Source: Stieleria magnilauensis
Lineage (GTDB): Bacteria > Planctomycetota > Planctomycetia > Pirellulales > Pirellulaceae
DNA length: 64,000 nt
NCBI GenBank assembly: GCA_007753675.1
Contig: CP036432.1
Coordinates: 7,256,233 to 7,320,232 of the forward strand
Direction: 5' to 3'
Shown here: piece after piece, positions 9,001 through 23,735 of the stretch
How the letters are laid out: every line of letters starts with the position of its first letter
Position numbering within the stretch: the first letter of the stretch is position 1
Notes under the pieces: generated by a model
The model's input: the letters and a program-made list of their open reading frames with translations, nothing else
What the model was told of the DNA's origin: nothing
Databases searched by the model: none
Made by a program: the position numbers and the translations under genes

Positions 9001-12000
9001 ACCGGTCAGCCGATCACGCTGATCGGCCGCGGTTTTACCAGCAACACGCTGGTCCAGTTTGAAGCGGTCGATGCGAGCGGCGTGGCCGGACGCTTGGTCC
9101 GCAGCGGCACGATCAACAGTGACGGCACACGGTTGACCGTCACCGTCCCCGCGCTGGCCCGCAGCGGGATGGTGAAAGTCATCGGCAGCACTGCCGAATT
9201 CCCCCTCCAGATCGTGCCGACGCTGCGTTCGGTCGGTGGATCGGTAACAGCGGGCAACTCGATTTTGTTGGAAGGTACCGGACTGGTCGAAGGCGGCTTG
9301 ACGGTCACGATCGATGGTCAGGTTGTCAGCGGCCTTGATGTCTTGGTGATTTCCGATCAGGGACTCGACCAACAAGTCGTCGACCTGACCGTGCCCGCCG
9401 GAGTCTCGGCCGGAGTGGTCGTGGTCAGCACGGCCGGAGGCAGTTTCACGCTCCGTCCGGCCGCGACGATCGTGACCGAGTCCGACCTGTTCCTCGGCCC
9501 GGACACCGGCGACACGCTGGCGACCGCGGAGGTGCTCGTCGACCTTTTGATCAACCGTCGGCTGAACGTCCACTCGCAGAGCATCGGTGACAATGATTTC
9601 ATTGCCCAAGACGTGGACCTGTATCGATTCACGGCCAATGCGGGCGATGTGATCGGCATCGATGTGATCCGGCAGGCCCCCTTCAGCCTGGTCAACTCCT
9701 ACGTTCGCCTGTTCGATGCCACGGGCAACGAATTGGCATCCGACGTCAATAGCGGACCGGACGGCAATTCGCGTTTGACCGATGTCCGCTTGCCCGCCGC
9801 CGGCGATTACTACATCGGCATCAGCAGCTGGGTGAACAACGGCTACGATCCCTCAGTCGCTAATAGCGGCGCAAACGCCTTCTACACCGGCCCCTATCAG
9901 TTGACCGTCCAACGCGTCGACGGCGGCAGCACGTCGCTGACGGGCATCGTCGCTGCGGCAGACAGCGGCACGGCGGCACGGTCGGGCATCGCCGCGGCCA
10001 ATGTGGGTCAAACCATCACGATCCAAGGTGCCGGGCTGCAGGACGGAGACCGGGTCGTGTTCACCACCATCGACCTCAGCGGCAATCTCACCACGTCAGT
10101 CGTGACGCCGACGTCGGTCGCCGCTGATGGCCTGAGTCTGGAAGTCCAGGTCCCTTTCAACGCGGCCAGCGGCATGGTCCGTTTGGAACGTGAAAACGTC
10201 GGCCAGTTCTTGCAGATCGTGCCGACGCTTCACGACGTGCGTCAAGATTCGACGCTTTACCACAACGGGCAGCTTGTGTTGTTCGGCAGCGGTTTCGCCG
10301 AGGGTGGCGTGACGATCCACTTCGGCGCCCAGTCGCTGATCGACGGCAGCACCTCCAGCGGACCGGATGTGTATTACAGCGCCGACTTCAGCTTCGAAAA
10401 CGGCAGCATCTACTTGACGGTTCCAACCGCAGTGCCCTTCGGTCCGATCAGCGTCAGCACCCTCGGTGGCACCAGCGCCGCGTTCCCGTTGACCTTCAGC
10501 GGCATCACTTCGACCGCCGACAGCGGCACGCCCGCCGACGCGTTGGCGGCTTCCGCCAACCCCGGGCAGGCCATCACACTCTCCGGCAGCGGCTTCGATG
10601 CGTCCAGTGACGTCGTGTTCCAAGTCATCGACATCAACGGCATCGTCAGCCAACAAGTCGTTCGCCCGCTGGCCGTTGAACCCGATGGATCGCAACTAAC
10701 CGTCGTCGTCCCGATGAACGCCTTCACCGGAACCGTCGGCGTCGTCGGCGACCAGAACAACACCCAAGCACGCTTGCAGATCGTGCCGGTGCTCGACAAC
10801 GTCGACTTCACCTCGATCGCCGCCGACCGATCCAGCGGACAAGTCATCCTGTCCGGACGCGGATTCGTCGAAGGCAACAACAGTGTTTACACGTTCGGTG
10901 GCATACAGTTGACCGATACGGGTGTCAGTGAGGGTCCCGACGTGTACTACAGCGTCGACTTCGGCTTCCACAACGGCACTGTGCATCTGGCTTTACCGAC
11001 CGACGGCAACTTCCACGGCGCCGTCACCGTCATGACCGCCGGGGGAACCAGTGCGGCCTTTGCGGTCGGTTACAACGATCTGATCGCTCTGGCTGCCAGC
11101 GGAACGCCCGCCAACGCGGCAGATGCTTCCGCCAACCCCGGACAGACCTTCACGGTCAGCGGAACCGGACTGAGCATGACGACCGATCTGCTGGCCCAGT
11201 ACCGTGACCTCGGCGGAACACTGCAAACGCAGTTGCTCAATCCGCACTTCGTCAACGTTGCCGGAACCGAAGCCACCTTCCTGGTGCCGAAGTATTTCAA
11301 CGGCGCGTTCTCCGTCCATGTCATCGGTTCGGCTGCCGAGCACCTGCTGCAGATCGTGCCGATCGTCACCGGCCTGAACGTCAACGGCAACGGCGCAGTC
11401 GAAGTGTTGGGCAGCGGTTTTGTCGAAGGCAACAACAGCCTGTACGTCTTCGGAAGTTCACAGCTGACCGACATCGACGTCAACGCCGGACCGGACGTCT
11501 ACTACAGCAGCGACTTCAGCTTCCAGAACGGACGCGTGCTGTTGAGTCTGCCCAGACACGGCTTTGAATCCTTCACCGCAACAACTACAGGCGGCAGCAG
11601 CGTCGCGATCTCGACCCACTTCCTGCATCCCGCCGCAGGCATTCTTTATGACGTGGCCGTCGATCCGACCAACGGCAAGGTGTTCGTCGTCACCATCTCA
11701 CAAATCCTGCAAATCGATCCGGCCAACGGCCAGACCCTGGCGGCGTTCAGTCTGCCCGGCGGCAACAGCGGCAACACGGGGCTGCAGGTTCTGCCGACCG
11801 CGATGACGCTCTCCGGAGTCGCGATACCGGCCGGAAGCCTGCTGGTCACCAACGGCGGCGCAAGCACTGACAAGGTCTATGCGGTCAACCCCAACACCGG
11901 CGTCATCCTGGCCACACGCGACCTGGGACTCAACCATGATCCGGTCGCCGGAGTGTATCACCCGACCAGCGGCAGCCTGTTCCTGCTCGACGGCAGCCCC

Positions 12001-15000
12001 GATCAGTTGCTGCAGATCGATCCGACCAGCGGCGCTGTGTTGAACAGTTTTGCACTGCCGATCGACGTCAACTACGGCGGACTGGCCATCGATCCGGTCA
12101 CCGGCAACCTCTGGATCGGATCCAGCCAAACGACCTCGGTCAGCGAATACACCACCGCCGGCGTGCTGGTCCGCTCCGTCAACCTGTCCGCTCAAGGACT
12201 CGGCAACGAACTTTCCGGACTGGCCTTCGATGCGGCCGGTCGACTGTTCGTCAGTTCCAACAACGGCGTCGTGTACCGTCTGGACCTCGCGCCGATCGCC
12301 GCTCCCGCTCCCGTTTTGTCGTCGATCAGCGCGACCGCCAAGGACGGGAATCCGGCAAGCGGTGCCACCGCATCGGCCAACGTGGCCCAGTCGATCGAAC
12401 TGATCGGAACGAACTTCACCGCCGCCACACGCGTCGTCTTTTCGACCCGTGACAACCACGGTGTCGTCGGCAGCGTGGAAGTGCTACCGACGGCGGTCCG
12501 TGGTGACGGCACGCGATTGGAAGTGATCGTTCCGGATCTGGCGCAGACCGGATCGGTGTCGCTTCTCGGTGGCAGCGGCGGTGTCGACTTGCACATCGTC
12601 CCGGTGCTCAGCGGCATCAGCGGTCGCGCCGGAGTGGACGCCTTCTTCAGCCTGTTCGGTTCGGGATTCATGGAAGGTGCCAGCACGGTCACGATCGGAG
12701 GCGTCACGCTCACCGATCAGTACACCAACGCGGTCGACGGCGATGTCTCGGGCAGCCGCAACAACCAGTTCGATTTATTGGCCCGGTTTGCCGTCGAAGG
12801 CACGATCACGGTGGCGACCGCCGGTGGTTCGTTCAGCTTTGTCGGTCCCGTGGACGCCTTGCCGCCGTTCGTTGAATTTGGCGGCATCAGCGCCAATCCC
12901 CAGAGCGGTGTCGCGGTCAATGCGTCGGTCGCGTCGGCCAACACCGGTCAGCCGATCACGCTGATCGGCCGCGGTTTTACCAGCAACACGCTGGTCCAGT
13001 TTGAAGCGGTCGATGCGAGCGGCGTGGCCGGACGCTTGGTCCGCAGCGGCACGATCAACAGTGACGGCACACGGTTGACCGTCACCGTCCCCGCGCTGGC
13101 CCGCAGCGGGATGGTGAAAGTCATCGGCAGCACTGCCGAATTCCCCCTCCAGATCGTGCCGACGCTGCGTTCGGTCGGTGGATCGGTAACAGCGGGCAAC
13201 TCGATTTTGTTGGAAGGTACCGGACTGGTCGAAGGCGGCTTGACGGTCACGATCGATGGTCAGGTTGTCAGCGGCCTTGATGTCTTGGTGATTTCCGATC
13301 AGGGTCTCGACCAACAAGTCGTCGACCTGACCGTGCCCGCCGGGGTTTCTGACGGAGTGGTCGTGGTCAGCACGGCCGGAGGCAGTTTCACGCTCCGTCC
13401 GGCGGCGACGATCGTGACCGAGTCCGACCTGTTCCTCGGCCCGGATACCGGCGACACGCTGGCGACCGCGGAGGTGCTCGTCAACCTTTTGATCAACCGT
13501 CGGCTGAACGTCCACTCGCAGAGCATCGGTGACAATGATTTCATTGCCCAAGACGTGGACCTGTATCGATTCACGGCCAATGCGGGCGATGTGATCGGCA
13601 TCGATGTGATCCGGCAGGCCCCCTTCAGCCTGGTCAACTCCTACGTTCGCCTGTTCGATGCCACGGGCAACGAATTGGCATCCGACGTCAATAGCGGACC
13701 GGACGGCAATTCGCGTTTGACCGATGTCCGCTTGCCCGCCGCCGGCGATTACTACATCGGCATCAGCAGCTGGGTGAACACAAGCTACGATCCCTCAGTC
13801 GCTAATAGCGGCACGAGCGCATTTTACACCGGCCCCTATCAGTTGACCGTCCAGCGCGTCGACGGCGGCAGCACGTCGCTGACGGGCATCGTCGCTGCGG
13901 CAGACAGCGGCACGGCGGCACGGTCGGGCATCGCCGCGGCCAATGTGGGTCAAACCATCACGATTCAAGGTGCCGGGCTGCAGGACGGAGACCGGGTCGT
14001 GTTCACCACCATCGACCTCAACGGTAATCTCACCACGTCAGTCGTGACGCCGGCTTCGGTCGCCGCTGATGGCCTGAGTCTGGAAGTCCAGGTCCCTTTC
14101 AACGCGGCCAGCGGCATGGTCCGTTTGGAACGTGAAAACGTCGGCCAGTTCTTGCAGATCGTGCCGACGCTTCACGACGTGCGTCAAGATTCGACGCTTT
14201 ACCACAACGGGCAGCTTGTGTTGTTCGGCAGCGGTTTCGCCGAGGGTGGCGTGACGATCCACTTCGGTGCCCAGCCGTTGATCGACGGCAGTACCTTCAG
14301 CGGACCGGATGTGTATTACAGCGCCGACTTCAGCTTCGAAAACGGCAGCATCTACTTGACCGTTCCAAACGGAGTGCCCTTCGGTCCGATCAGCGTCAGC
14401 ACCCTCGGCGGCACCAGCGCCGCGTTCCCGTTGACCTTCAGCGGCATCACTTCGACTGCCGACAGCGGCACGCCCGCCAACGCCCTCGAGGCTTCCGCCA
14501 ACCCCGGTCAGGCCATCACGCTCTCCGGTAGCGGGTTCGATGCGTCCAGTGACGTCGTGTTCCAAGTCATCGACATCAACGGAATCGTCAGCCAACAAGT
14601 CGTTCGCCCGCTGGCCGTTGAACCCGATGGTTCACAACTGACCGTCGTTGTCCCGATGAACGCCTTCACCGGAACCGTCGGCGTTGTCGGCGACCAGAAC
14701 AACACCCAAGCACGCTTGCAGATCGTGCCGGTGGTGACGTCATTCGACCTAACGGGAGGCAACGGGTCCGTCACGATCTTTGGCAGTGGATTGATCGAGG
14801 GTAACGATAGCGTGTACACCTTTGGAACGACGCAGTTGACCGATAGCAGCGTCAGCGGCGGTCCCGACGTGTACTACAGCGCTGACTTCAGCTTCCAAAA
14901 CGGACGTGTGTTCTTGAACCTGCCACCGCACGGCTTTGGGGAACTCATCGTGACGACCGCTGGCGGCAGCAGTGTGCCGATCGCGATGGGTTTTGCGTTC

Positions 15001-15669
15001 CCGGCTGTGGGTACGATTTACGATGTGGCGTTGGATTCGGTCAGCGGCGACCTGTTTGTAGCGACGTCTTCGCAGATTTTGCGTGTCGACGCGGTCAGCG
15101 GCCAAACGTTAGCGGCGTTCAACCTGCCCGGCGGCAACAGCACCAACACGGGGCTGCAAGTTTTGCCGACCGCGATGACCCTCGGCGGAGTCGGTGTTTC
15201 CGCCGGAAGCCTGCTGGTCACCAACGGCAGCGTCAGCTTTGACAAACTGTACGCAGTCGATCCCACGACGGGTGTGATCCTGGCGACACTCGATCTGGGA
15301 CAAAACATCGATCCGGTGGCCGGTGTCTACGATCCAACCAGCGGCAGCCTGTTTCTGCTTGACCGCAACGCGAACCTGCTCTGGCAGATCGATCCATCGA
15401 CCGGCGCCGTCCAAAACAGCTTTGCATTGGCAATCGACGTCTTCCACGGCGGGCTCGCACTTGATCCGGTCAGTGGCAACCTGTGGATCGGTACTAGCCA
15501 AAGCACAACGGTCAGCGAGTACACCCTGACCGGATCGCTGGTTCGCACGGTCGATCTGGCGGCGCAAGGACTCGGCAACGAGCTCACCGGTCTGGTCTTC
15601 GATTTGGCCGGCCAGCTACTGGCGGCGTCCACGCTGGGCGTCGTCTATCGATTCGATTTAAACGTCTAA
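1..15669 (+). CDS. Giant secreted multidomain protein with vanadium-haloperoxidase-like domain (5' end outside window)
   Basis: The frame is open from the first base, so the N-terminus, including any signal or LEPR motif, lies upstream. Numbering below takes the codon at nt 10 as residue 1. A PAP2/vanadium-haloperoxidase domain spans about residues 158-545. Its ligand set has family spacing: K419 and R426, S462-G463-H464, R513 and H519. Then come bacterial Ig-like modules, an SbsA-type Ig domain (nt 2230-2580), a carboxypeptidase-regulatory-like module (2590-2960), a lower-G+C helical segment (3480-4250), thrombospondin-3-like Ca-binding repeats (4255-4380), an LVIVD-like propeller (4400-5330) and Ig modules. 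From about 6000, IPT-like modules ending in LQIVP alternate with NHL-like propellers and a PPC domain. Most of this part is a tandem duplication. The protein ends in a propeller at GVVYRFDLNV with no sorting tail. Likely a surface or matrix protein carrying an oxidase or phosphatase; the substrate is unknown. Confidence 0.9.
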   Translation, partial: SLSVEAHLDGTTTISVPVNPDGSFSFDPKTIPGFADGGHQVRIVARDGFGNPTSLNLDFILDTLPPAAPALDLSAGSGAVGPRTTNASRVTLVGSTDPNVSVALAPVAATSLSSNTGAVQFASVELQVGSNPFTAIATDAAGNSTVANFNLERVIQTGSQDPVLRWNQVTLDAITFDASSPTYASRAIAIVHAAIYDAVASLEGRPGYYVSLLPPPGASLEAAVSGAAYHVLNDLYPGQQSFLDANLQAALAVVPEGSGKTAGVTFGRSVADAILAMRAGDGWNAFVDYVPGTVPGAWLPTGPTYAQALHPQWANLTPFAMTTADQFLPAGPPDLSSQAWANAYNEVKSLGQLNSPSRTADQTEIARFWADGAGTSTPVGHWNVIAGDAALTAGNSISENARLFAALNLSLGDAAIVAWNAKYRYDFWRPETAIRAGSSDGNAATLADPSWTPLVISPPFPEYVSGHSTYSGAAAAILTATFGPGFSFVATSASLPGVSRAFNNFDEAAEEAGRSRVYGGIHYDFSNRDGLEAGRSLASYVLGTFTTSVDQIAPTVILVSPNTAIATQQNVTVTGRVLDNLSGVATLEAQLDNGAFGPLSFDADGNFSVQTTLPLDGTADGAHALKLRATDYAGNTSGIKQLDFVLDTIAPALTVDLPPAGATLAAGARLTGSVSGTGAALVSLTYNFNGGAARSFLTSKAGGAFNTALDLSTLTAGTHTLNVVARDAAGNVTTVSRSVTLPELIPLTITHVTPAAGSSDVGSTYRPQVFFSRPVNVGSLNATNFYATDTTGTKIPARIVPAADGRFAWLFFNQPLPSASTVTVHVVGDTILAADGGQPLDADGNGTAGGTFSYRFTTVSLVPLAGTSLSGRVYDPGVDLKPMTFDDFRAGPDGALHTADDIFLNPLAGVKVFILGLENQSVTTDAQGYFSFASVPAGNIKLAIDGRTATNAPAGFYFPEMVMDLEILVGQANTVMGTMGTRAQREANLDRLETYLPRIKSSILQSVSDSAATTIGVDAESAPNLTPQQRQYLQLEIQPASLIGPDGQPITGGQVGISAVPPELVRDMLPAGLLQHTFDITIQAPDAAAFATPLQITFPNVFNAAPGTKLNFLSFDHTTGRLVIEGTATVSEDGLSVTSDPGTGITKPGWHGLTPPITQPKKPDDCTPFRGYNAYIVCAKAYFSTFVSNFKNTFNYASSKRAAEAARDACVKVAELCAGGGSSGGTDGNAPPPFELNTESQSNLPISDPLLQLIANMRAIQDSIQTDLDLSQDIANQIEQLIGNAQSEAELTQQQRDQLATLESNLIALFEGQTPAERFAARMAEYEDLLFDADLELQHFVSEKYFYYLENLDNGFVIRGTTERDGSITDIALQPNSHYLLRLVGASSFQVRETIVITASSGESTSICFRPIVVDSSVDSDFDGLTDLVESIIGTNPTNADSDLDGISDRAEIEQGLDPLSGLAFPTGVVASLLIQGEATEIRLVGSVLDTGDQMAYVATGSYGLAIIDVSQLQMPVVVSQLMLNGNALDLDISPSQNLAAVATGIYGIQIVDVAAATSPTLLQSVPLPGGATRVEIYDGLIYAGSPQSDRLHIIDLATGELLESITIGGGIVDLAREGSLLYALTGNQQLRAIDISHFSAVVRGSLTLPQAGRKVFVGNGVAYIGADPGFGQGFMTANVADPDNLILLSDVDANNIAGTAIVANGSGLGISVGDLGFGVDSVLHVVDVSDPTNTSAFVTQYSLPSDPRSVALGAGIAFVANGVNGLQVVNYRSFDNLGQAPVISISSPVQDIDGGAAGIQIVEGTSIPIQVSITDDVQVRNVELLVNGQVVQNDVAFPFDFIAIAPALAGGPSSVSIQVRAIDTGGNTSLSNILSYDLVADSIAPSVVGTTPQSGQKVFFTPSIDVRFDEPLNTALVNAGGVSLIFLGADGVVGGGDDQTVPLRSVESRVLGRRLSIYPANLLDTGNYQVTLDPSIVADRAGNHLAAPFSFEFTIRPASDLKAQSGFPRVGRAPSANAGQEIGFHFPGGVDENLRVTFPTIDVNGNLGSIEVAPSRFDGIVNNAFFVVPMNATTGDINSTAFVDGPLPLQIVPTLNDVRQDSTPYHNGQLVLFGSGFAEGGVTIHFGAQSLIDGSTFSGPDVYYSADFSFENGSIYLTVPTAVPFGPISVSTLGGTSAAFPLTFSGITSTADSGTPADALAASANPGQAITLSGSGFDASSDVVFQVIDINGIVSQQVVRPLAVEPDGSQLTVVVPMNAFTGTVGVVGDQNNTQARLQIVPVLDNVDFTSIAADRSSGQVILSGRGFVEGNNSVYTFGGIQLTDTGVSEGPDVYYSVDFGFHNGTVHLALPTDGNFHGAVTVMTAGGTSAAFAVGYNDLIALAASGTPANAADASANPGQTFTVSGTGLSMTTDLLAQYLDLGGTLQTQLLNPHFVNVAGTEATFLVPKYFNGAFSVHVIGSAAEHLLQIVPIVTGLNVNGNGAVEVLGSGFVEGNNSLYVFGSSQLTDIDVNAGPDVYYSSDFSFQNGRVLLSLPRHGFESFTATTTGGSSVAISTHFLHPAAGILYDVAVDPTNGKVFVVTISQILQIDPANGQTLAAFSLPGGNSGNTGLQVLPTAMTLSGVAIPAGSLLVTNGGASTDKVYAVNPNTGVILATRDLGLNHDPVAGVYHPTSGSLFLLDGSPDQLLQIDPTSGAVLNSFALPIDVNYGGLAIDPVTGNLWIGSSQTTSVSEYTTAGVLVRSVNLSAQGLGNELSGLAFDAAGRLFVSSNNGVVYRLDLAPIAAPAPVLSSISATAKDGNPASGATASANVAQSIELIGTNFTAATRVVFSTRDNHGVVGSVEVLPTAVRGDGTRLEVIVPDLAQTGSVSLLGGSGGVDLHIVPVLSGISGRAGVDAFFSLFGSGFMEGASTVTIGGVTLTDQYTNAVDGDVSGSRNSQFDLLARFAVEGTITVATAGGSFSFVGPVDALPPFVEFGGISANPQSGVAVNASVASANTGQPITLIGRGFTSNTLVQFEAVDASGVAGRLVRSGTINSDGTRLTVTVPALARSGMVKVIGSTAEFPLQIVPTLRSVGGSVTAGNSILLEGTGLVEGGLTVTIDGQVVSGLDVLVISDQGLDQQVVDLTVPAGVSAGVVVVSTAGGSFTLRPAATIVTESDLFLGPDTGDTLATAEVLVDLLINRRLNVHSQSIGDNDFIAQDVDLYRFTANAGDVIGIDVIRQAPFSLVNSYVRLFDATGNELASDVNSGPDGNSRLTDVRLPAAGDYYIGISSWVNNGYDPSVANSGANAFYTGPYQLTVQRVDGGSTSLTGIVAAADSGTAARSGIAAANVGQTITIQGAGLQDGDRVVFTTIDLSGNLTTSVVTPTSVAADGLSLEVQVPFNAASGMVRLERENVGQFLQIVPTLHDVRQDSTLYHNGQLVLFGSGFAEGGVTIHFGAQSLIDGSTSSGPDVYYSADFSFENGSIYLTVPTAVPFGPISVSTLGGTSAAFPLTFSGITSTADSGTPADALAASANPGQAITLSGSGFDASSDVVFQVIDINGIVSQQVVRPLAVEPDGSQLTVVVPMNAFTGTVGVVGDQNNTQARLQIVPVLDNVDFTSIAADRSSGQVILSGRGFVEGNNSVYTFGGIQLTDTGVSEGPDVYYSVDFGFHNGTVHLALPTDGNFHGAVTVMTAGGTSAAFAVGYNDLIALAASGTPANAADASANPGQTFTVSGTGLSMTTDLLAQYRDLGGTLQTQLLNPHFVNVAGTEATFLVPKYFNGAFSVHVIGSAAEHLLQIVPIVTGLNVNGNGAVEVLGSGFVEGNNSLYVFGSSQLTDIDVNAGPDVYYSSDFSFQNGRVLLSLPRHGFESFTATTTGGSSVAISTHFLHPAAGILYDVAVDPTNGKVFVVTISQILQIDPANGQTLAAFSLPGGNSGNTGLQVLPTAMTLSGVAIPAGSLLVTNGGASTDKVYAVNPNTGVILATRDLGLNHDPVAGVYHPTSGSLFLLDGSPDQLLQIDPTSGAVLNSFALPIDVNYGGLAIDPVTGNLWIGSSQTTSVSEYTTAGVLVRSVNLSAQGLGNELSGLAFDAAGRLFVSSNNGVVYRLDLAPIAAPAPVLSSISATAKDGNPASGATASANVAQSIELIGTNFTAATRVVFSTRDNHGVVGSVEVLPTAVRGDGTRLEVIVPDLAQTGSVSLLGGSGGVDLHIVPVLSGISGRAGVDAFFSLFGSGFMEGASTVTIGGVTLTDQYTNAVDGDVSGSRNNQFDLLARFAVEGTITVATAGGSFSFVGPVDALPPFVEFGGISANPQSGVAVNASVASANTGQPITLIGRGFTSNTLVQFEAVDASGVAGRLVRSGTINSDGTRLTVTVPALARSGMVKVIGSTAEFPLQIVPTLRSVGGSVTAGNSILLEGTGLVEGGLTVTIDGQVVSGLDVLVISDQGLDQQVVDLTVPAGVSDGVVVVSTAGGSFTLRPAATIVTESDLFLGPDTGDTLATAEVLVNLLINRRLNVHSQSIGDNDFIAQDVDLYRFTANAGDVIGIDVIRQAPFSLVNSYVRLFDATGNELASDVNSGPDGNSRLTDVRLPAAGDYYIGISSWVNTSYDPSVANSGTSAFYTGPYQLTVQRVDGGSTSLTGIVAAADSGTAARSGIAAANVGQTITIQGAGLQDGDRVVFTTIDLNGNLTTSVVTPASVAADGLSLEVQVPFNAASGMVRLERENVGQFLQIVPTLHDVRQDSTLYHNGQLVLFGSGFAEGGVTIHFGAQPLIDGSTFSGPDVYYSADFSFENGSIYLTVPNGVPFGPISVSTLGGTSAAFPLTFSGITSTADSGTPANALEASANPGQAITLSGSGFDASSDVVFQVIDINGIVSQQVVRPLAVEPDGSQLTVVVPMNAFTGTVGVVGDQNNTQARLQIVPVVTSFDLTGGNGSVTIFGSGLIEGNDSVYTFGTTQLTDSSVSGGPDVYYSADFSFQNGRVFLNLPPHGFGELIVTTAGGSSVPIAMGFAFPAVGTIYDVALDSVSGDLFVATSSQILRVDAVSGQTLAAFNLPGGNSTNTGLQVLPTAMTLGGVGVSAGSLLVTNGSVSFDKLYAVDPTTGVILATLDLGQNIDPVAGVYDPTSGSLFLLDRNANLLWQIDPSTGAVQNSFALAIDVFHGGLALDPVSGNLWIGTSQSTTVSEYTLTGSLVRTVDLAAQGLGNELTGLVFDLAGQLLAASTLGVVYRFDLNV
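6268..10209 (+). repeat. Tandem repeat copy 1 (3,942 bp, in frame)
   Basis: This is the first copy of a 1,314-codon unit inside the giant gene. Copy and spacing were fixed by matching both edges: TTGCAGATCGTGCCGACG occurs at 6268, 10210 and 14152. The unit encodes three GPDVYYS-type IPT modules, an NHL-like propeller (about 7690-8350), several further IPT-like modules and a PPC domain (about 9500-9920). From about 7363 to 8821 I saw no difference from copy 2; scattered substitutions occur elsewhere. Confidence 0.93.
10210..14151 (+). repeat. Tandem repeat copy 2 (3,942 bp, in frame)
   Basis: The second copy abuts copy 1 with no spacer and keeps the frame. Sample differences from copy 1 are 7362 T versus 11304 C (silent), 8822 G versus 12764 A (Ser to Asn), the Leu/Arg change in AQY(L/R)DLGG and the Ala/Asp change in GVS(A/D)GVVVV. 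Changes cluster towards the ends. That pattern fits a recent duplication or gene conversion and shows that the copies are not one sequence assembled twice. Confidence 0.93.
14152..14733 (+). repeat. Tandem repeat copy 3, truncated
   Basis: The third copy matches copies 1 and 2 closely for 582 bp, up to QARLQIVPV. It then skips the second IPT pair of the unit and continues in a clearly diverged version of the third IPT module and the NHL-like propeller (14734-15660), ending at the stop codon. The C-terminus is therefore an older, shortened unit partly overwritten by the newer repeat sequence. Confidence 0.85.
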
Positions 15670-15699: not shown

Positions 15700-16323
15700 A
15701 TGTCCTCAACATTCTGGTCAAAAACATCGCGTTATGCGATTTGCGTTTTTTTGGCGTTCAGTTGGACGGAGTCCCGTGCGGCGATCGTCACCATCGGGGA
15801 TTTCAGCACAACACCTTCTGGCGTTGCGCAGTCGGGCAGCGTCGATATCTTCATCGAAGATGATGGATCGTTGCCGATTGAAGTCGCGGCATTCCAGCTC
15901 AAGGTCACCGTCGTCGGCGGAGACGCGGGCGCCGTTCTGACCGGTTTTGGAGCTCCATCGAGTCGCCCTTACGTCTTTTCCGGTGCGTCCTCCATGCCGG
16001 CCGGTCTGATCTCGAATGATTTCAAAATCGTCGAACTCGGTGACTTTTTGCTGTCCGGAAGCAGAAATGTCCTCGGTGGCGAAGGGCTCGGAAGTCTGCA
16101 ATTTTCGATCCCAGCCAACGCAACGAAGAATTTCAAACTGGACCTCAGCCTGAATCCGCAAGACACGTTCCTTGCCAACGGTGCCGGTCAAAACCAGCCG
16201 TTCACCATTCGAGGAGGATCCATTTCTGTCACGGCCATTCCCGAACCGAGTGTCGCCGCGCTGCTGCTTTGCGTCCCCGCAATGTACGTTTGCATGACGA
16301 GGCGACGGAGGAGAAGTGCCTGA
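15700..16323 (+). CDS. PEP-CTERM sorted secreted protein
   Basis: 207 aa, starting 30 bp after the giant gene, so possibly co-transcribed with it. It has an N-terminal signal peptide (hydrophobic about residues 10-27), a beta-rich body of about 150 residues and a C-terminal PEP-CTERM signal: PEPSVAA, a hydrophobic stretch (LLLCVPAMYV) and an Arg-rich end (RRRRRS). In the family such tails are recognised and cleaved by an exosortase, which links export to the outer envelope or extracellular matrix. The body shows a cohesin-like run (GDFLLSG, then GLGSLQF), but I cannot name its ligand. No exosortase is encoded in this window. Confidence 0.85.
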   Translation: MSSTFWSKTSRYAICVFLAFSWTESRAAIVTIGDFSTTPSGVAQSGSVDIFIEDDGSLPIEVAAFQLKVTVVGGDAGAVLTGFGAPSSRPYVFSGASSMPAGLISNDFKIVELGDFLLSGSRNVLGGEGLGSLQFSIPANATKNFKLDLSLNPQDTFLANGAGQNQPFTIRGGSISVTAIPEPSVAALLLCVPAMYVCMTRRRRRSA

Positions 16324-16427
16324 GACCGGCGAGACGCGTCGGCCAACGGCGTCCCCGGGCGACGCATCGGGAGGATTTAGGAGGAGGAAATTAAGATTGC
16401 TGCAGGGAAACGGACGACGGGTTTAGA

Positions 16428-16447
16428 ATTGACATGCAAATGTCAAT
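16428..16447. promoter_or_regulatory. Operator-like inverted repeat overlapping a possible -35 box
   Basis: A perfect inverted repeat with arms ATTGACAT and ATGTCAAT and a 4-nt centre (GCAA) lies about 85-100 bp upstream of the GH43-like gene. The left arm contains TTGACA (16429-16434), a consensus -35 hexamer. The best -10 is poor (CTATGG or TATGGG, spacing 18-19). It could be a repressor site on the promoter of the GH43-like gene, but no cognate regulator lies nearby. Confidence 0.4.
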
Positions 16448-16531
16448 CTGGGCTATGGGAATCTGCTTCGCCCATACGACGATGTTTGCCCCTCCAAGTT
16501 GCCGCCAACCTGTTTCCCCGTGAGTCCGGTG

Positions 16532-18880
16532 ATGTTCCCGAGAAGGCCTCCAAGCGCCGCGGTCGCGCTATCCGCGTTCGTTCAGTCCGCGTTGCTACGT
16601 TCATCGATTCTGCTAGTCGTCTCGCTCGTCTCTGTTGCGTCGGCACAGGACTTGAAGATCGAATTTGCCAAGGTGCTGCGGCAGTCAACCTTCAAGAGCG
16701 AATCCCATAGCATCTGGGGCGGTTCGCTGGTCAAGGGTGACGACGGCTGGTACCACTTGTTTTACAGCCGCTGGCCCAAACACCTCGGCTGGGCCTGGGT
16801 CACCGATTCTGAAGTCGCCCACGCGGTCTCCGACAGCCCCTTCGGGCCCTTCCAATTCAAAGACGTGGCGCTGCCCCGTCGCGGACGTGAGTTCTGGGAC
16901 GGCTGGTGCACCCACAACCCGACGGTCCACCGTTTCGGTGACAAGTATTACCTGTATTACATGGGCAATACCGGCGACGGAATGGTCACGGGCACTCCCG
17001 GCAAAGAGAAACTGAATTGGAATCATCGCAACAACCAACGCATCGGCGTCGCGGTGGCCGACAGCCCCAATGGCCCCTGGGTTCGCAGTGACAAACCGCT
17101 GCTGGATGTCAGCCGCGACGAGGCCGCAATCGACTCATTGATGACGTCGAATCCGTCAGTCTGCCAACGCCCCGACGGCGGATTCTTGATGGTCTACAAA
17201 GCGGTCGGAAAAGAATACCCGATGCCCAACGGCGGCCCGGTGGTCCACGGTGTGGCAACGTCGGATCACCCCACCGGACCGTTTAAAAAACACGACCGTC
17301 CGATCTTTACGTTCCAAGGCGAACGTTTTCCGGCGGAAGACCCGTACATTTGGCACCAAAACGGAAAGTACCGGGCGATCGTTAAACGGATCAAACACGA
17401 AGGCAAACAACGCGTGTTCTCGTTGGTGCACTACGATTCGGTTGACGGTTTCGATTGGAAACCCGCTAAACACCACGAGATCTCCGAACGCATCGTTCAA
17501 TGGGAAGACGGAACGGTCGAGCAGTTTGAACACCTGGAACGGCCGCAGGTGTATTTGGAAAACGGCGTCCCGATCGCCTTGCTGTGTGCCGCCGATACCC
17601 GCGACGCCAATCGCGTCCGGCATTCCTTCAACATCCAGATTCCGCTGCGTGTTTCATTGATGCCGGCAGCGGCCGATGAGCCTGCGGCCAATGATGCAGC
17701 GGCGGGATTCCCCTATGTGTTGCCAAAGCAGAAACCGGACCGCCCACTGAGCGAGGCGATGCGGCGCAACTACGACGCCTATCCCGCGCCCCGACCCGAA
17801 GACAACGAGTTGTACACACGATTCAAATACACGCCGCTGAAGGGCTTGGATGATCACGGCGGCGATGGAACCGTCTCACGTCGTGATCCATCCAAAGTGA
17901 TTTTCGAAAACGGCAAGTACTACGTTTGGTACACCAAACGCAACACCCCCACTCCGCCCCAAGGGCCCGACGGGTTCACCGACACGATTCCCTCAAGCGA
18001 CTGGGATCTGGCCGACATCTGGTACGCCACCAGCGAAGATGGATTCAGCTGGGACGAACAAGGCGTCGCCGTCGCGCGGCCCGAAAAGCCGTTGCTCGGA
18101 TGGCGATCGGTCAGCACACCCGACATCCTGGTTTGGAAAGGCAAGTACTACCTGTATTACCAAGGGTTCAGCGAGGCCAGCGGGACGCGTGGCGATGACT
18201 GTCCCGTTGCAGTCTCCTACGCTGATTCGCCCGACGGACCGTGGACTGCCCATCATCAAGTCGTCCTCCCCAACGGCGCCGCGGGACAGTGGGACCAGTA
18301 TTCAGTCCATGATCCCTACCCGTTGGTCTATCGCGGAAAGATCTACCTGTATTACAAGTCCGACTTCGACGGCGACCCAAACCTGGTCCGGATGCAGGGG
18401 CTTGCCATCGCCGACGATCCGTTGGGCCCATTTAAAAAACATCCGCTCAACCCCGTGATCAACTCCGGGCACGAAACGACGTTGTTTCCGTTTCGCAATG
18501 GGATCGCCGCGTTTGTCATCCGCGACGGTCTAGAGCACTCCACCATCCAATACGCCCCCGACGGCGTCCATTTCAAAATCGCATCGATCGTTTCGCTGAT
18601 GCCCAACGCGGGCGGACCGTTCATCCCCGACGCGTTTACCGACACGCAAAACGGCCGCGGAATCACCTGGGGACTGTCACACTTCACCAACGTCTCCACC
18701 TGGGACAAGAACCACGCCATTCTTGCCAGATTTGATTGCGATCTCTCGCTCGATGTCAATGATCCGGAGATGAAACGCACCGGCGATTATCACAAACCGG
18801 ACGTGTTTTTTGAACAACGTTTAAGCAGCAAACAAAAGGCACGGATCGAGGACGAGAACAAGACGCTGATGAAACCGTAG
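16532..18880 (+). CDS. Secreted GH43-like glycoside hydrolase with two propeller lobes
   Basis: 782 aa from the ATG at 16532. The frame also opens with TTG at 16499 and GTG at 16520, but the ATG start places the signal peptide (hydrophobic about residues 20-37, ending SVASAQ) normally. Two halves of about 370 residues each carry the GH43/GH32/GH117-type five-bladed propeller pattern, with blades of the form DGKYYLYY. Lobe 1 includes SIWGGSLV, GWCTHNPTV and AEDPYIWH; lobe 2 includes GGDGTVSRRDPSKV, VSTPDILVW and YSVHDPYPLVY. Acidic residues in these strands are candidate catalytic residues, but I cannot assign a triad. The likely role is extracellular or periplasmic hydrolysis of a complex glycan. 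A sulfatase lies downstream, separated by a hairpin repeat. Substrate unknown. Confidence 0.75.
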   Translation: MFPRRPPSAAVALSAFVQSALLRSSILLVVSLVSVASAQDLKIEFAKVLRQSTFKSESHSIWGGSLVKGDDGWYHLFYSRWPKHLGWAWVTDSEVAHAVSDSPFGPFQFKDVALPRRGREFWDGWCTHNPTVHRFGDKYYLYYMGNTGDGMVTGTPGKEKLNWNHRNNQRIGVAVADSPNGPWVRSDKPLLDVSRDEAAIDSLMTSNPSVCQRPDGGFLMVYKAVGKEYPMPNGGPVVHGVATSDHPTGPFKKHDRPIFTFQGERFPAEDPYIWHQNGKYRAIVKRIKHEGKQRVFSLVHYDSVDGFDWKPAKHHEISERIVQWEDGTVEQFEHLERPQVYLENGVPIALLCAADTRDANRVRHSFNIQIPLRVSLMPAAADEPAANDAAAGFPYVLPKQKPDRPLSEAMRRNYDAYPAPRPEDNELYTRFKYTPLKGLDDHGGDGTVSRRDPSKVIFENGKYYVWYTKRNTPTPPQGPDGFTDTIPSSDWDLADIWYATSEDGFSWDEQGVAVARPEKPLLGWRSVSTPDILVWKGKYYLYYQGFSEASGTRGDDCPVAVSYADSPDGPWTAHHQVVLPNGAAGQWDQYSVHDPYPLVYRGKIYLYYKSDFDGDPNLVRMQGLAIADDPLGPFKKHPLNPVINSGHETTLFPFRNGIAAFVIRDGLEHSTIQYAPDGVHFKIASIVSLMPNAGGPFIPDAFTDTQNGRGITWGLSHFTNVSTWDKNHAILARFDCDLSLDVNDPEMKRTGDYHKPDVFFEQRLSSKQKARIEDENKTLMKP

Positions 18881-19184: not shown

Positions 19185-20660
19185 ATGTTCCGCACCTTTT
19201 TGCTCGCTTGCCTGCTGACAGCTTCGCCTCTGCTCTTTGCCGACGATCGGCCCAACATCGTTTGGATCATTCCCGATGATATGTCGGCGAATTTCTCGTG
19301 CTACGGCGAGACCGCGATCCAGACGCCCAACGTCGACCGACTCGCCCAGCGCGGTGTGAAATTCAATAACGCCTTCGTTACCGCGCCGGTCTGTTCGACC
19401 TGTCGATCGGCGTTCATCACGGGCATGTATCAAACCAGCATCGGTGCGCATCATCACCGCAGCGGTCGTGGGGAACTCAAGATCAATCTTCCCGACGGCA
19501 TCGAATTGGTGCCCAAGTTGTTTCAACAGGCCGGTTACCACACGTCGATCACCGGTTGGCCGCTCAACGGAAAACTCGGCAAAACGGATTACAACTTCCA
19601 GTGGGATGAATCCGTCTACGACTCCAACGATTGGGCCACACGAAACGAAGGGCAACCCTTCTTCGCGCAGATCCAAACACAAGGCGGAAAACTGCGTGGC
19701 AAGGACGCCGAGGGCTGGAAAAAAGTTTCCGCGGCGGCGGAGAAAACACTCGGCAGCCGCACACCGAACAGCGCCGTCAAGTTGCCGCCCTACTACCCCG
19801 ATCATCCGGACGTCGTCCGCGACTGGGCGGCTTATCTGGATTCCGTTCGCATGACCGACGTGATGGTCGGCGAAGTGCTGGCCCGCTTGGAAAAAGAAGG
19901 CGTGCTTGAAAACACGATCGTGTTGTTCATGACCGACCACGGGATCAGTCACGCGCGTGGCAAACAATTTCTGTACGACGAAGGGCTGCACGTCCCACTG
20001 GTGATCGCCGGCCCCGGCATTCCAGCCGGCACCGTTCGAGAGGATGTCGTCGAGCACATTGACATCGCCGCGTTGTCGCTCGCCGCCGCAGACATCGCGC
20101 TCCCCAACTCGATGCAGGCCCGCGACATTTTGGCCGATGACTACGCCCCGCGCGAAGCCGTTTTTGCCGCCCGAGATCGTTGTGACGAAACCGTCGACCA
20201 TATTCGCAGCGTCCGCACCAACGATTTCAAGTACATCCGCAATTTCCTGCCCGAGCGGCCTTACTTGCAACCCTGTGCCTACAAGGACGCCAAAGCAATC
20301 TTGATCGCACTGCGCGCAGATCACGCGGCCGGCAAACTGAACGACACCCAGGCGTTGCTGTTCCGCCAGACCCGGCCGACCGAAGAGTTGTACGACCTGA
20401 AAAACGATCCGCATGAAATTCACAATCTGGCGGGCGATCCGCTGTTTGCCGCAAAGTTGACAGAGATGCGTCAACGGCTGGACGTCTGGATGCAAGAAAC
20501 CGACGATCAAGGGCGACAGGCCGAATCGGAACAGATGTACGACAGCGACATGAAGGTCTACACCGACCGCCTGAGCTTGCCAAAATTTGATCCCAAGCAG
20601 CTGACAACCGTCCAGAAAAACATCGCCCTGATGAAGCAATGGGCCTCCGAAGGAAAATAA
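19185..20660 (+). CDS. Secreted sulfatase with atypical C-S-T-C-R active-site motif
   Basis: 491 aa with a signal peptide (residues 1-19) and a formylglycine-dependent sulfatase (S1) fold. PNIVWIIPDD supplies the metal-binding Asp pair at 31-32, and MTDHGISH is the later metal site. The active-site block is C70-S-T-C-R74: Cys at the formylglycine position and the Arg are present, but the usual Pro (or Ala) at position 3 is Thr. GMYQTSIGAHHHRSG follows. The C-terminal TEELYDLKNDPHE box is typical. It abuts the next gene with no gap (stop 20658-20660, ATG 20661), so the two are probably translationally coupled. The likely role is removing sulfate from extracellular polysaccharide or glycosaminoglycan-like substrates. 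Confidence 0.92.
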   Translation: MFRTFLLACLLTASPLLFADDRPNIVWIIPDDMSANFSCYGETAIQTPNVDRLAQRGVKFNNAFVTAPVCSTCRSAFITGMYQTSIGAHHHRSGRGELKINLPDGIELVPKLFQQAGYHTSITGWPLNGKLGKTDYNFQWDESVYDSNDWATRNEGQPFFAQIQTQGGKLRGKDAEGWKKVSAAAEKTLGSRTPNSAVKLPPYYPDHPDVVRDWAAYLDSVRMTDVMVGEVLARLEKEGVLENTIVLFMTDHGISHARGKQFLYDEGLHVPLVIAGPGIPAGTVREDVVEHIDIAALSLAAADIALPNSMQARDILADDYAPREAVFAARDRCDETVDHIRSVRTNDFKYIRNFLPERPYLQPCAYKDAKAILIALRADHAAGKLNDTQALLFRQTRPTEELYDLKNDPHEIHNLAGDPLFAAKLTEMRQRLDVWMQETDDQGRQAESEQMYDSDMKVYTDRLSLPKFDPKQLTTVQKNIALMKQWASEGK

Positions 20661-23387
20661 ATGACTGACTCATCGATTGATCGGCGTCAATTTGTCAAGC
20701 GATCCGCCGCGCTGGCTTCGGCGGGAATGACCCTCGCGCACGCCGGCTTGGCGACCGCCGCATCCAAGTCTGGCGTGACCGAGATCACCTTCCCCCGGCA
20801 AGACTCACTGGTTCATCCGCCCGAGTGGGAATCGTTGAACCCGGGTTATTGGAAAGTCGAAAACGGTCGCTTACGTCGCCGGTTGTCGAACGTCGGTGAT
20901 CGCGCCCGCCGCACCGGATTTCCGTTTCACGCTGAATCCAAGGGCGGTGTGATGGAGACGGAGTACGATCCCTCACTGCCGGCGGGGATTCTGTATCGGC
21001 GCGATCAGTTTTTGAGCGGCCGGTATTCGATCGACGCCCAATTCGTCTACCACGCCGACGCTGCCGATCCGGCCCCAGGGGACGACCCTGCGTGGAAGAT
21101 GTACCAGCGCGGTAATGGACTGATGGGGATTGCGATCGGAGCGAAGAATCTGCTGGAAAGTTTCAACAAAGTCACCAATGCGACCCAAATTGCTTGGTCG
21201 GACGACGGAAAACTCCATGTGATCTCTCGTGGAAAGGCGAAGAAGGGGGCCGGGCGGCAACAAGCCGGTGCCGAACACGATGCGTTTGATTTGTCGCCAG
21301 GCGATGTCGTCCACTTGCGAGTCGACGTGGTCCCCGCCGGCCAACACGCCCAGTTGTCTGTCGTCCTGTCTCGTGGCAGCGACACGGTTCGATTGACTCA
21401 AAAGGTTCCCGTCGGCCAAACCGAAGGCTATGTCGGAGTGCTGGCGCGTGGGCTGATCGACTTTAGTGTCAGCGCGCTGACGATCGAAGCGGAGGAAGCG
21501 CCACCGCTCGCCGTGCAAACCAGCCCTTGCCTGGCCTGCTACGCACTCGGTGACACGCTGCAGAAAAACGACGCCGGCGAGTGGACGGTTCGCTTCGTCG
21601 GGATCTTCGAAAGCGATGGGGAACAAGCGGAACTTCGAATCGCAACGTCCGAACGCCCGGCCGGCGGATGGAAGTCGGTGACCGTGGCGGGTCAGGCAAA
21701 AATCATCAACAACGACTTTCGTCGCAACACCGCCGTGATGGAAGCCGTCTTGCCTGAGAACCCCGGCGCGACCGACCTCTACTACACCGTTTGGAAGGAT
21801 GGGGTCGACGTGACGGCGGATCCACGCATCGGCACGGCCGCCGTCGGCCCGGGGACGGGATTGGTCGGCGATGTACCGGACAGTGGAAGCTATGTCGGAC
21901 GCCTGCCCCGACTCGTCGCACCGTATCGGCTGTGTGGTCTGTCCTGCCATGCCATCACCAGCGGTCTGCAACAGAAGACCGACAACGGGTACACGATCAC
22001 CGGCGGCAACAACGTTTGGCAATTTCGCGACCAACCGACCGAAGGCGCCTACTCCCATTTGGAAGCGTACGATTTCCAAGTGATGGTCTGGGAGGACGAC
22101 GTTTGGTACATGGAACTGGTGTTGTATCCGCCCAGCACCGATGACGCCTACAAGATCGTCACCCAATCGATTTGTGGCCCGACCAGCCGTTGGCAATTGA
22201 TGCGCCACTGGAACGTGATCAATCCCGGTGACCATGATTACGGCATGGACGACGTCAAAGGTCCCGAACAGATCATCATTCGGCGACAAGATGGACTGGG
22301 GCAAGACGCGTCGTACATGCGACGCAACTTCCAAATCGTCCACCACCTGATCACCGGCGACGAAGAGGTTGATCCGTTGGCCAATCCGAAGAAGTGGCGG
22401 GCTTGGAAAATGCCAAATCGCGACTTCACGTTCGTGATCACGGATTCACGATTGTGGCGAAGCAGCCAGAACGTCGACGTCTGGCGCGAGCAGGGCTGGG
22501 GTGCCTTCAAGAGCCTTTATGACCGCACCGACCCGACACGCAGCCTGCTGGGCGAAGAACAATTCGCCTGGTTACAAGAACTGCTCGCCACCGATTCGTC
22601 TCGATTGATTTGCTTGACCGGAATCAACGGCTTGCACACGATTTGGACCGGCGGACGGGGCGATTTCGAAAGCGGCAAACATCCGATGAAGTTCAGCCAA
22701 CGCGATCGGGTGACCGCCGACTATGCCGGCTGGGTCAAAGCCGGTGCCGATCGCGTGCTGGAATTGCTGGGCGGGCGCGACGGCGTCGTGACCGTTTACG
22801 GCGACGTCCACAACGGTTCGATCATGACCAACCAGACCCATCGCGTGATCGAATCCAGTTTTGGTCCGATCGGTCGCAGCGGGGGTCGCGGCGTGATTCC
22901 GGGGTTCGGACCCCAGATGAAAGACGTCGATGGACGCGATCTGACGATTCATTGCCTGTATCACAAAGAGTTTTCCGATCCGAACCTGTCGCCGCACGCC
23001 GACGGTGAACCGTTCTACTGGAACTTCCTGGAAATGGAGTTCGATCCTGGAAAAGAAGATCCGTCGATCGACCTGCGGATCCGCAACTTGGTGGATCCGC
23101 CTCAGCAAACGCCGCGCGGAGGAGGATCGCTGCAAACGACCGCGTCGCAAACGGGGCGTCATCCTGCCAGCCGGCTGCCTGAAATCAAAACGATTCCCGG
23201 TGCCGAAGTTCAGATCCTGGACCTGAACGGATGCCCGATCCGGGGCACCACCAGCCTGGATGATGGCAGGATCGTGGTCGGCGGATTGGTCGACATCGAT
23301 CCGGGCGCAGAAGTCCTGGTCCTCGCCCATCGCGGCGAACTGTCAGAGGTCAAAAAAGTTCAGACCCTGCCCGTTGACGCGGGATAA
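20661..23387 (+). CDS. Tat-exported PhoD-like metallophosphoesterase-family protein
   Basis: 908 aa. The N-terminus has a twin-arginine signal (R8-R-Q-F-V-K13, then a hydrophobic stretch to about residue 34). Residues 35-280 look like a lectin/laminin-G-like beta sandwich (ENGRLRRR, GRYSIDAQFVYH). Residues about 290-400 resemble the beta domain in front of PhoD-type phosphatases. The C-terminal half carries DHDYGMDD, LICLTGINGLH and TVYGDVHNGSI (about residue 712), the last matching the G-D-x-H metal-ligand block of PhoD. Some PhoD metal ligands are not obvious, so activity may differ. Coupled to the upstream sulfatase, it may handle a sulfated or phosphorylated glycan. The superfamily call is moderate and the function is inferred. 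Confidence 0.6.
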   Translation: MTDSSIDRRQFVKRSAALASAGMTLAHAGLATAASKSGVTEITFPRQDSLVHPPEWESLNPGYWKVENGRLRRRLSNVGDRARRTGFPFHAESKGGVMETEYDPSLPAGILYRRDQFLSGRYSIDAQFVYHADAADPAPGDDPAWKMYQRGNGLMGIAIGAKNLLESFNKVTNATQIAWSDDGKLHVISRGKAKKGAGRQQAGAEHDAFDLSPGDVVHLRVDVVPAGQHAQLSVVLSRGSDTVRLTQKVPVGQTEGYVGVLARGLIDFSVSALTIEAEEAPPLAVQTSPCLACYALGDTLQKNDAGEWTVRFVGIFESDGEQAELRIATSERPAGGWKSVTVAGQAKIINNDFRRNTAVMEAVLPENPGATDLYYTVWKDGVDVTADPRIGTAAVGPGTGLVGDVPDSGSYVGRLPRLVAPYRLCGLSCHAITSGLQQKTDNGYTITGGNNVWQFRDQPTEGAYSHLEAYDFQVMVWEDDVWYMELVLYPPSTDDAYKIVTQSICGPTSRWQLMRHWNVINPGDHDYGMDDVKGPEQIIIRRQDGLGQDASYMRRNFQIVHHLITGDEEVDPLANPKKWRAWKMPNRDFTFVITDSRLWRSSQNVDVWREQGWGAFKSLYDRTDPTRSLLGEEQFAWLQELLATDSSRLICLTGINGLHTIWTGGRGDFESGKHPMKFSQRDRVTADYAGWVKAGADRVLELLGGRDGVVTVYGDVHNGSIMTNQTHRVIESSFGPIGRSGGRGVIPGFGPQMKDVDGRDLTIHCLYHKEFSDPNLSPHADGEPFYWNFLEMEFDPGKEDPSIDLRIRNLVDPPQQTPRGGGSLQTTASQTGRHPASRLPEIKTIPGAEVQILDLNGCPIRGTTSLDDGRIVVGGLVDIDPGAEVLVLAHRGELSEVKKVQTLPVDAG

Positions 23388-23654: not shown

Positions 23655-23722
23655 CTCAACGAGTGACCCCAGCGCGTCGTCATGCGAAACGCAGGTGGTC
23701 GGCTCCCGTGCCTGTTTTCGAC

Positions 23723-23728
23723 AAGGAG
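23723..23728 (+). promoter_or_regulatory. Ribosome-binding site fixing the start at 23736
   Basis: AAGGAG ends 7 nt before the ATG at 23736. It selects that codon over the frame's upstream in-frame start at 23682, which would add 18 residues lacking receiver-domain character. Confidence 0.75.
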
Positions 23729-23735
23729 TGCTCCG

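Follow-up and report, generated by a model that had tools for sequence, protein, structure and literature searches.

The site at positions 16428-16447 of the analysed window, a 64,000-nt stretch of the Stieleria magnilauensis genome, probably belongs to an operator at which an activator of the AraC/XylS family would control fucose-type genes. This operator would consist of tandem half-sites 21 bp apart, the second of which overlaps a predicted weak -35 region, with a -10-like box further downstream; the copy in the window would have arrived with a 143-bp module. The sequences themselves support the conserved block and its 21-bp direct repeat, the kinds of gene nearby, the linkage to an AraC-family gene and the duplication; binding, activation and the role of L-fucose or a derivative as inducer are what we infer from them. 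With somewhat less confidence, we favour a wider reading, that of a fucose regulon common to several genera of the family, in which both the AraC-type regulator and its operator would be new. The regulator, encoded by an orphan gene, would act in trans on two promoters, the second of them copied by means of the 143-bp module, which would keep the GH43-sulfatase unit in the regulon despite the 16-kb gene that separates it from the GH29 gene.

The 20-mer ATTGACATGCAAATGTCAAT, with arms of 8 nt and a spacer of 4 nt, is present exactly at 16428-16447 and is, as originally predicted, a perfect palindrome ahead of a GH43-like gene. From base composition only, 1.28 perfect dyads with 8-nt arms and a 4-nt spacer are expected in the window, and one is observed; for 8-nt arms with spacers of 0-10, 14 are observed versus ~14 expected. 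The perfect symmetry is no evidence by itself, because the dyad count matches the chance expectation. What is above chance is the presence of two exact copies of the 20-mer, the 143-bp block with 87% identity, and the preservation of the surrounding block in other genera. Although chance alone would give roughly one such perfect dyad per window, a functionless chance palindrome within a duplicated stretch is an extremely improbable explanation: the block is conserved across genera before the same kinds of gene, and the similarity of the two S. magnilauensis copies begins at the element. The exact 20-mer occurs in the genome (one contig, 10,769,056 bases) twice and no more (C1:7253154 and C1:7272660), on the same strand and 19.5 kb apart, the first copy being 3.1 kb before the window. 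The suggestion that further copies might lie near glycan genes was borne out by the exact copy outside the window, which heads a GH29 fucosidase gene. With up to 3 mismatches, the genome contains 19 copies versus 4 of a reversed control pattern that differs in composition, and no inference is drawn from this comparison. A 3-mismatch copy at G000:C1:7834948-7834967, 32 bp past the end of the orphan AraC gene, was not found at the corresponding place in G004, G005 and G006, and is probably due to chance.

The layout around the palindrome is as follows:

16421..16437, + strand: half-site 1 (distal), GTTTAGAATTGACATGC, of the 21-bp direct repeat
16428..16447, no strand: palindrome, running from the last part of half-site 1 into the first part of half-site 2
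16442..16458, + strand: half-site 2 (promoter-proximal), GTCAATCTGGGCTATGG, of the 21-bp direct repeat, overlapping the predicted -35 region
16455..16460, + strand: predicted weak -35, ATGGGA, 17 nt before the -10-like box, in the conserved GGCTATGGG block
16478..16483, + strand: predicted -10-like box, GACGAT (GACAAT or CACAAT in six genus GH29 promoters)

Taking GACGAT, the weakest of the -10-like boxes, as the -10 of the GH43 copy, the transcription start is predicted near 16490, and the half-sites would span roughly -69 to -53 and -48 to -32. Judging by the conserved -10-like box, the proximal half-site would overlap or abut the -35 region. The original prediction had the palindrome overlap a consensus -35 hexamer. 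The string TTGACA is indeed inside the palindrome, but its use as a -35 is not supported: the promoter scan, at its thresholds, returned no -10 paired with TTGACA, the hexamer is altered in four of the six orthologous GH29 promoters (TAGACA in G004 and G005, TTGACG in G006 and G008), and the conserved -10-like box is ~40 nt downstream. A palindromic repressor operator would be expected to cover the -35 hexamer of a promoter of the sigma-70 type, and no such arrangement was found. A single strand of the palindrome folds to an 8-bp hairpin, and an RNA hairpin with a GCAA tetraloop in the 5' leader is another conceivable function, although a very unlikely one: the palindrome lies before the predicted start, no covariation was seen between its arms, there is no Rfam match in 16200-16700, and the folding of the leader is unremarkable for two of three sequences. 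RNAalifold produced weak long-range pairing of the leader with the coding start, and neither a covarying stem nor a known RNA family was detected.

The palindrome is contained in a longer conserved block, GGTTWAnAATnGACATGCAAAnGTCAAnCTnGGCTATGG, at 16420-16458, with the -10-like box 19 nt further on. The leader precedes the GH29 gene in 6 of the 14 genus genomes searched (G000, which is S. magnilauensis, G004, G005, G006, G008 and G009); a BLAST search with the leader in the genus (E ≤ 0.1) missed G006 and G004, which were recovered through protein position and the palindrome pattern. Among these GH29 leaders, the palindrome is perfect in G000 only; one pair is broken in G004 and G005, and 5/8, 3/8 and 2/8 pairs are kept in G009, G006 and G008, respectively. 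The check proposed with the original prediction, whether orthologous promoters lack the palindrome, thus has a mixed outcome: none of the five GH29 promoters with the leader in the other genus genomes has the exact palindrome, whereas the element that contains it is conserved. The GGCTMTGGG motif and the NACAAT -10-like box, ~40 nt past the palindrome centre, are well conserved in the genus leaders. Other genera of the family were searched with a sequence-only model built from seven leaders (R1), which gave weak matches, in many cases to the palindrome-GGCTATGGG stretch. Apart from the seven leaders of the genus, 15 matched loci were inspected and 11 were kept; L085, L086, L093 and L100 bear no resemblance to the element and were dropped from training of the next model. 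The 11 kept loci mostly share the upstream GGTT and the downstream -10-like box, both largely outside the part matched by R1. The second sequence-only model (R2), trained on 18 sites, was searched in 241 family genomes; at E ≤ 2.4e-5 it returned 25 sites, spread over 23 genomes, and 18 of these sites are the training sites. Five further matches at E 0.007-0.009, including an AraC-adjacent one in G025, were excluded from the gene-context count.

The first gene downstream of the 25 R2 sites encodes GH29 in 13 cases, a UxaE-like protein in 8, an aldo/keto reductase in 3 (one by eye) and GH43 in 1; without the seven starting leaders (n = 18), the numbers are 7, 8, 3 and 0. It should be noted that genes were called by the longest ORF, and the called start overlaps the site in, e.g., G006, G008, G156, G164, G165, G171 and G186, where the true start must be further in. 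Many element operons continue with aldo/keto reductases and a permease family, and the permeases tested from two of these operons both scored above the cut-off of NCBIfam TIGR00885 (L-fucose permease). The presence of GH29 and FucP suggests that the element operons serve fucose. The fucP gene of S. magnilauensis lies outside the cluster, a point against the proposed control. The site before the GH43-like gene does look regulatory, as the original prediction expected, and substrate-dependent control, also expected, is plausible.

The symmetry of the element was analyzed using 31 sites (set A6), i.e., the 18 R2 training sites, 7 new R2 sites and 6 sites from neighbourhoods of genes of protein family F4, the AraC-family regulators described below. 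Among shifts of 8-29, a shift of 21 gave the best direct repeat in the block (z 3.2, 0 of 3000 column shuffles), with z 1.4 for the next best shift. The 13 sites outside R2 training also have their best shift at 21 (among 10-29; z 3.1, p 0.0013), followed by 20 (z 2.2), and the same holds for the 18 sites used in training (z 2.4, p 0.012). We read the half-site consensus as a putative GTYAA-N5-G-N-Y-ATG, asymmetric and in tandem, 21 bp apart. Tandem asymmetric half-sites ~20-22 bp apart were thus found, together with an overlapping dyad signal of similar or greater strength: for the dyad centred on the palindrome, z is 3.6 (p 0.002) in the 31 sites, above that of the direct repeat, 3.7 in the training sites, and 2.7 (p 0.006) in the 13 new sites, below the direct repeat there.

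This dyad signal could be produced by a dimeric TetR-, GntR- or LacI-type repressor that binds the palindrome and blocks a promoter with TTGACA as its -35, and such a protein would be well served by a dyad that is perfect in both S. magnilauensis copies and retains seven of eight pairs in four other sites. We nevertheless consider it unlikely. The dyad is perfect in no more than 2 of the 31 sites (those of S. magnilauensis) and has 2-6 pairs in 25 sites, with a mean of ~5/8; no covariation between the arms was detected (paired cells 66.5% versus 65.3% in shuffles, 53 of 500 shuffles being as high); the scan, at its thresholds, gave no -10 for the TTGACA hexamer, which is altered in four relatives, as shown above; and the adjacent regulator is AraC-type. 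Two-fold symmetry that is both conserved and covarying was not found in spite of the profile signal, and we discounted the symmetric dyad on the grounds that few sites have it in full and that its arms show no covariation. In our reading, the partial dyad exists because half-site 1 ends with TTGACAT and half-site 2 begins with ATGTCAA, a junction at which the symmetry may by chance be perfect. Most likely, then, the palindrome merely accompanies the longer conserved tandem-repeat element. The repressor blocking RNA polymerase in the original prediction is not sustained, since the linked regulator family is AraC-type and the site is predicted to lie where an activator would bind.

A divergent gene of family F4 adjoins 8 of the 25 R2 sites. 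The domains HTH_18, HTH_AraC and AraC_binding are above cut-off in all four F4 proteins tested, the S. magnilauensis orphan included; the linked regulator thus combines an AraC-family HTH with a sensor domain. One F4 protein compared to the AraC equivalog cut-off was far below it (53 of 208 bits). The family is present in 37 of the 241 genomes, namely, in 22 of the 26 genomes that have an R2 match at E ≤ 0.01 versus 15 of the 215 others (Fisher p 1.3e-17, a statistic that ignores phylogeny); the element genomes without F4 are G008, G009 and two with borderline R2 matches. S. magnilauensis has one F4 gene, an orphan at C1:7834028-7834912, ~561 kb from the palindrome. The orphan protein is ~54% identical to the operon-adjacent F4 proteins, and its recognition-helix segments look, by eye, close to those of the adjacent type.

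The neighbourhood of F4 was covered for 24 of the 37 F4 genomes, and 8 of these neighbourhoods were scanned using a two-half-site matrix with free spacing, built without any orphan-regulator site. At the S. magnilauensis orphan, there is one strong match in 19 kb (30.4 bits), ~60 bp upstream of the gene start, the next independent match having 3.0 bits. In four other genomes, one outstanding match is likewise found upstream of F4, with 31.2 bits (G006), 31.5 bits (G004), 28.6 bits (G005) and 23.8 bits (G204). The element is therefore found upstream of F4, with 20-bp spacing, in five of the eight neighbourhoods (G000, G004, G005, G006 and G204); the matrix is weak or negative at F4 in G172 (17.1 bits), G165 (1.1 bits) and G163 (0.7 bits). 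For the palindrome-region site in the window, the score is 53.0 bits, and that of the next independent window match is 5.4 bits. With R2, the site upstream of the orphan F4 was matched only in part, at 3-4 bits, in G000, G004 and G005, and not at all in G006 and G204; these values fall below chance matches elsewhere (up to 7.7 bits). Since R2 matched the orphan-F4 sites only in part, this link rests on the free-spacing matrix. The element copy upstream of the orphan AraC gene, at L179:7929-7966 (G000:C1:7833928-7833965; 20-bp spacing), faces a divergent gene whose DUF1559 product has an N-terminal methylation motif, and may control the AraC gene, the DUF1559 gene or both.

Loss of the regulator is tied to decay of the element partially at best. 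At E ≤ 1e-40, F4 was not found in G008 and G009 among the 14 genus genomes, five more of which were without F4 at this threshold and without a close GH29 homologue (E ≤ 1e-60). The F4-bearing stretch is missing from G009 with a clean junction (positions 3169-8989 of L179), and a longer stretch is missing around F4 in G008; the junctions are in L231 around 9625-9634 (G009) and in L232 around 10304-10351 (G008). The half-sites are decayed in G008, with 5/10 and 6/10 positions kept; in G009, which is also without F4, they keep 8/10 and 8/10 positions, with a 1-nt insertion. G006 keeps F4 and the site of F4, and its GH29 half-sites have 6/10 and 6/10 positions. A natural knock-out, in which the regulator is lost together with the element, is clear in G008 only, the element being mostly intact in G009 and decayed in G006 despite F4.

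Both palindrome copies head a 143-bp block with 124 of 143 positions identical (87%). The similarity begins one base before the palindrome, the first 23 positions are identical in both copies (hypergeometric p 0.028), and the leader after the palindrome is ~70 nt long. The surroundings of the copy in the window are as follows:

10..15669, + strand: giant repetitive ORF, beginning ~0.9 kb before the window and lying between the two element copies
15700..16323, + strand: small upstream gene with a PEP-CTERM-like end and no Pfam match
16427..16569, + strand: duplicated module spanning operator, promoter and leader as well as the beginning of the coding region (start codon, first 16-17 codons); its identity to the GH29 copy, located 19.5 kb upstream, is 87%
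16520..18880, + strand: GH43-like gene, a two-part gene with a GTG start assigned by homology to the GH29 leader
19185..20660, + strand: sulfatase, after a 304-nt gap following the GH43-like gene
20661..23387, + strand: PhoD-like protein gene after the sulfatase (weak Pfam match, below cut-off)

Copy 1 of the block precedes the alpha-L-fucosidase GH29 gene (Pfam Alpha_L_fucos), and copy 2 precedes the GH43-like gene. Because the GH29 and GH43-like proteins are of different Pfam families, the promoter and the signal-peptide start look copied as a module. The C-terminal half of the GH43-like gene matches the GH43 gene adjoining GH29 in G006, G008 and G009, whereas homologues of its N-terminal half occur on their own, at other places in G004, G006 and G009. 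The gene order in G006, G008 and G009 is GH29, the C-terminal GH43 half and the sulfatase; in G009, a giant gene and a homologue of the small PEP-CTERM-like gene stand before the GH29 leader. In S. magnilauensis, the order is GH29, giant gene, small gene, second leader, two-part GH43 gene and sulfatase, and the orders in the relatives may represent steps toward this arrangement. The giant repetitive ORF, which was not present at the corresponding place in G006 and G008, has ~5.5 thousand residues, including the part before the window, and an internal repeat of 3,942 bases. The sulfatase gene possibly continues the transcription unit of the GH43-like gene. Further along the window (23682-25379), a response-regulator receiver domain is fused to a Glu/Leu/Phe/Val dehydrogenase, with syntenic homologues of 95-98% identity in G006, G008 and G009.

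In the mechanism that we propose, the orphan AraC-family protein (G000:C1:7834028-7834912) would sense L-fucose or a derivative, a dimer would bind both half-sites (16421-16437 and 16442-16458), and the bound dimer would recruit RNA polymerase to a promoter with a weak -35. The GH43-sulfatase unit would have joined fucose control through the 143-bp promoter and signal-peptide module that it has in common with the GH29 gene. AraC-family proteins are able to both activate and repress, and the overlap of a half-site with the predicted -35 region is what would be expected if the same operator were used by an AraC-type protein that, when the sugar is absent, chiefly represses or switches in both directions. 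This variant appears improbable, as the -35 region is without a good hexamer, suggesting dependence on an activator.

If the operator is indeed that of a fucose-responsive AraC-type activator, one regulator-operator pair would account for how the genes for the fucosidase, the fucose permease and their associates are controlled in several genera, the site is a candidate sugar-switchable promoter, and the regulon would have grown by copying of a promoter and signal-peptide module. A methodological caution would also follow, namely that a perfect palindrome may be an accident of two tandem half-sites. No description of this regulon was found among the matches listed for open papers, and the transcription factors and operators of algal-polysaccharide-degrading planctomycetes seem to be little charted.

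The operator type is well known, and this regulator-operator pair would be a new member. The activator of fucose genes in E. coli, FucR, is a DeoR-family protein with a different operator, and the inducer of XylS is aromatic, not a sugar. The half-sites of E. coli AraC (TAGC-N7-TCCATA) resemble the S. magnilauensis site in being ~17 bp long and in tandem. E. coli AraC and F4 both have AraC_binding and HTH_18 domains; F4 differs from E. coli AraC in that the one F4 protein compared reached 53 bits against the AraC equivalog cut-off of 208. According to PMC4514859, the XylS/Pm operator, TGCA-N6-GGNTA-N6-TGCA-N6-GGNTA, is, like the S. magnilauensis site, a set of asymmetric direct repeats with a 21-bp period, served by an AraC/XylS-family activator; the half-site letters and the phylum are different. 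By our count from the same paper, the operator consensuses of XylS, MekR and MtlR repeat every 21-22 bp. CphR has its sites, according to PMC6205950, at -35 to -49 and -55 to -69, compared to about -32 to -48 and -53 to -69 predicted in S. magnilauensis. The operators of MtlR/PmtlE and CphR/cphA2A1 differ from the S. magnilauensis site in half-site letters and inducers, and resemble it in that their direct-repeat half-sites are just upstream of the -35 region; mtlR is apart from its own operon, as is the orphan AraC gene of S. magnilauensis.
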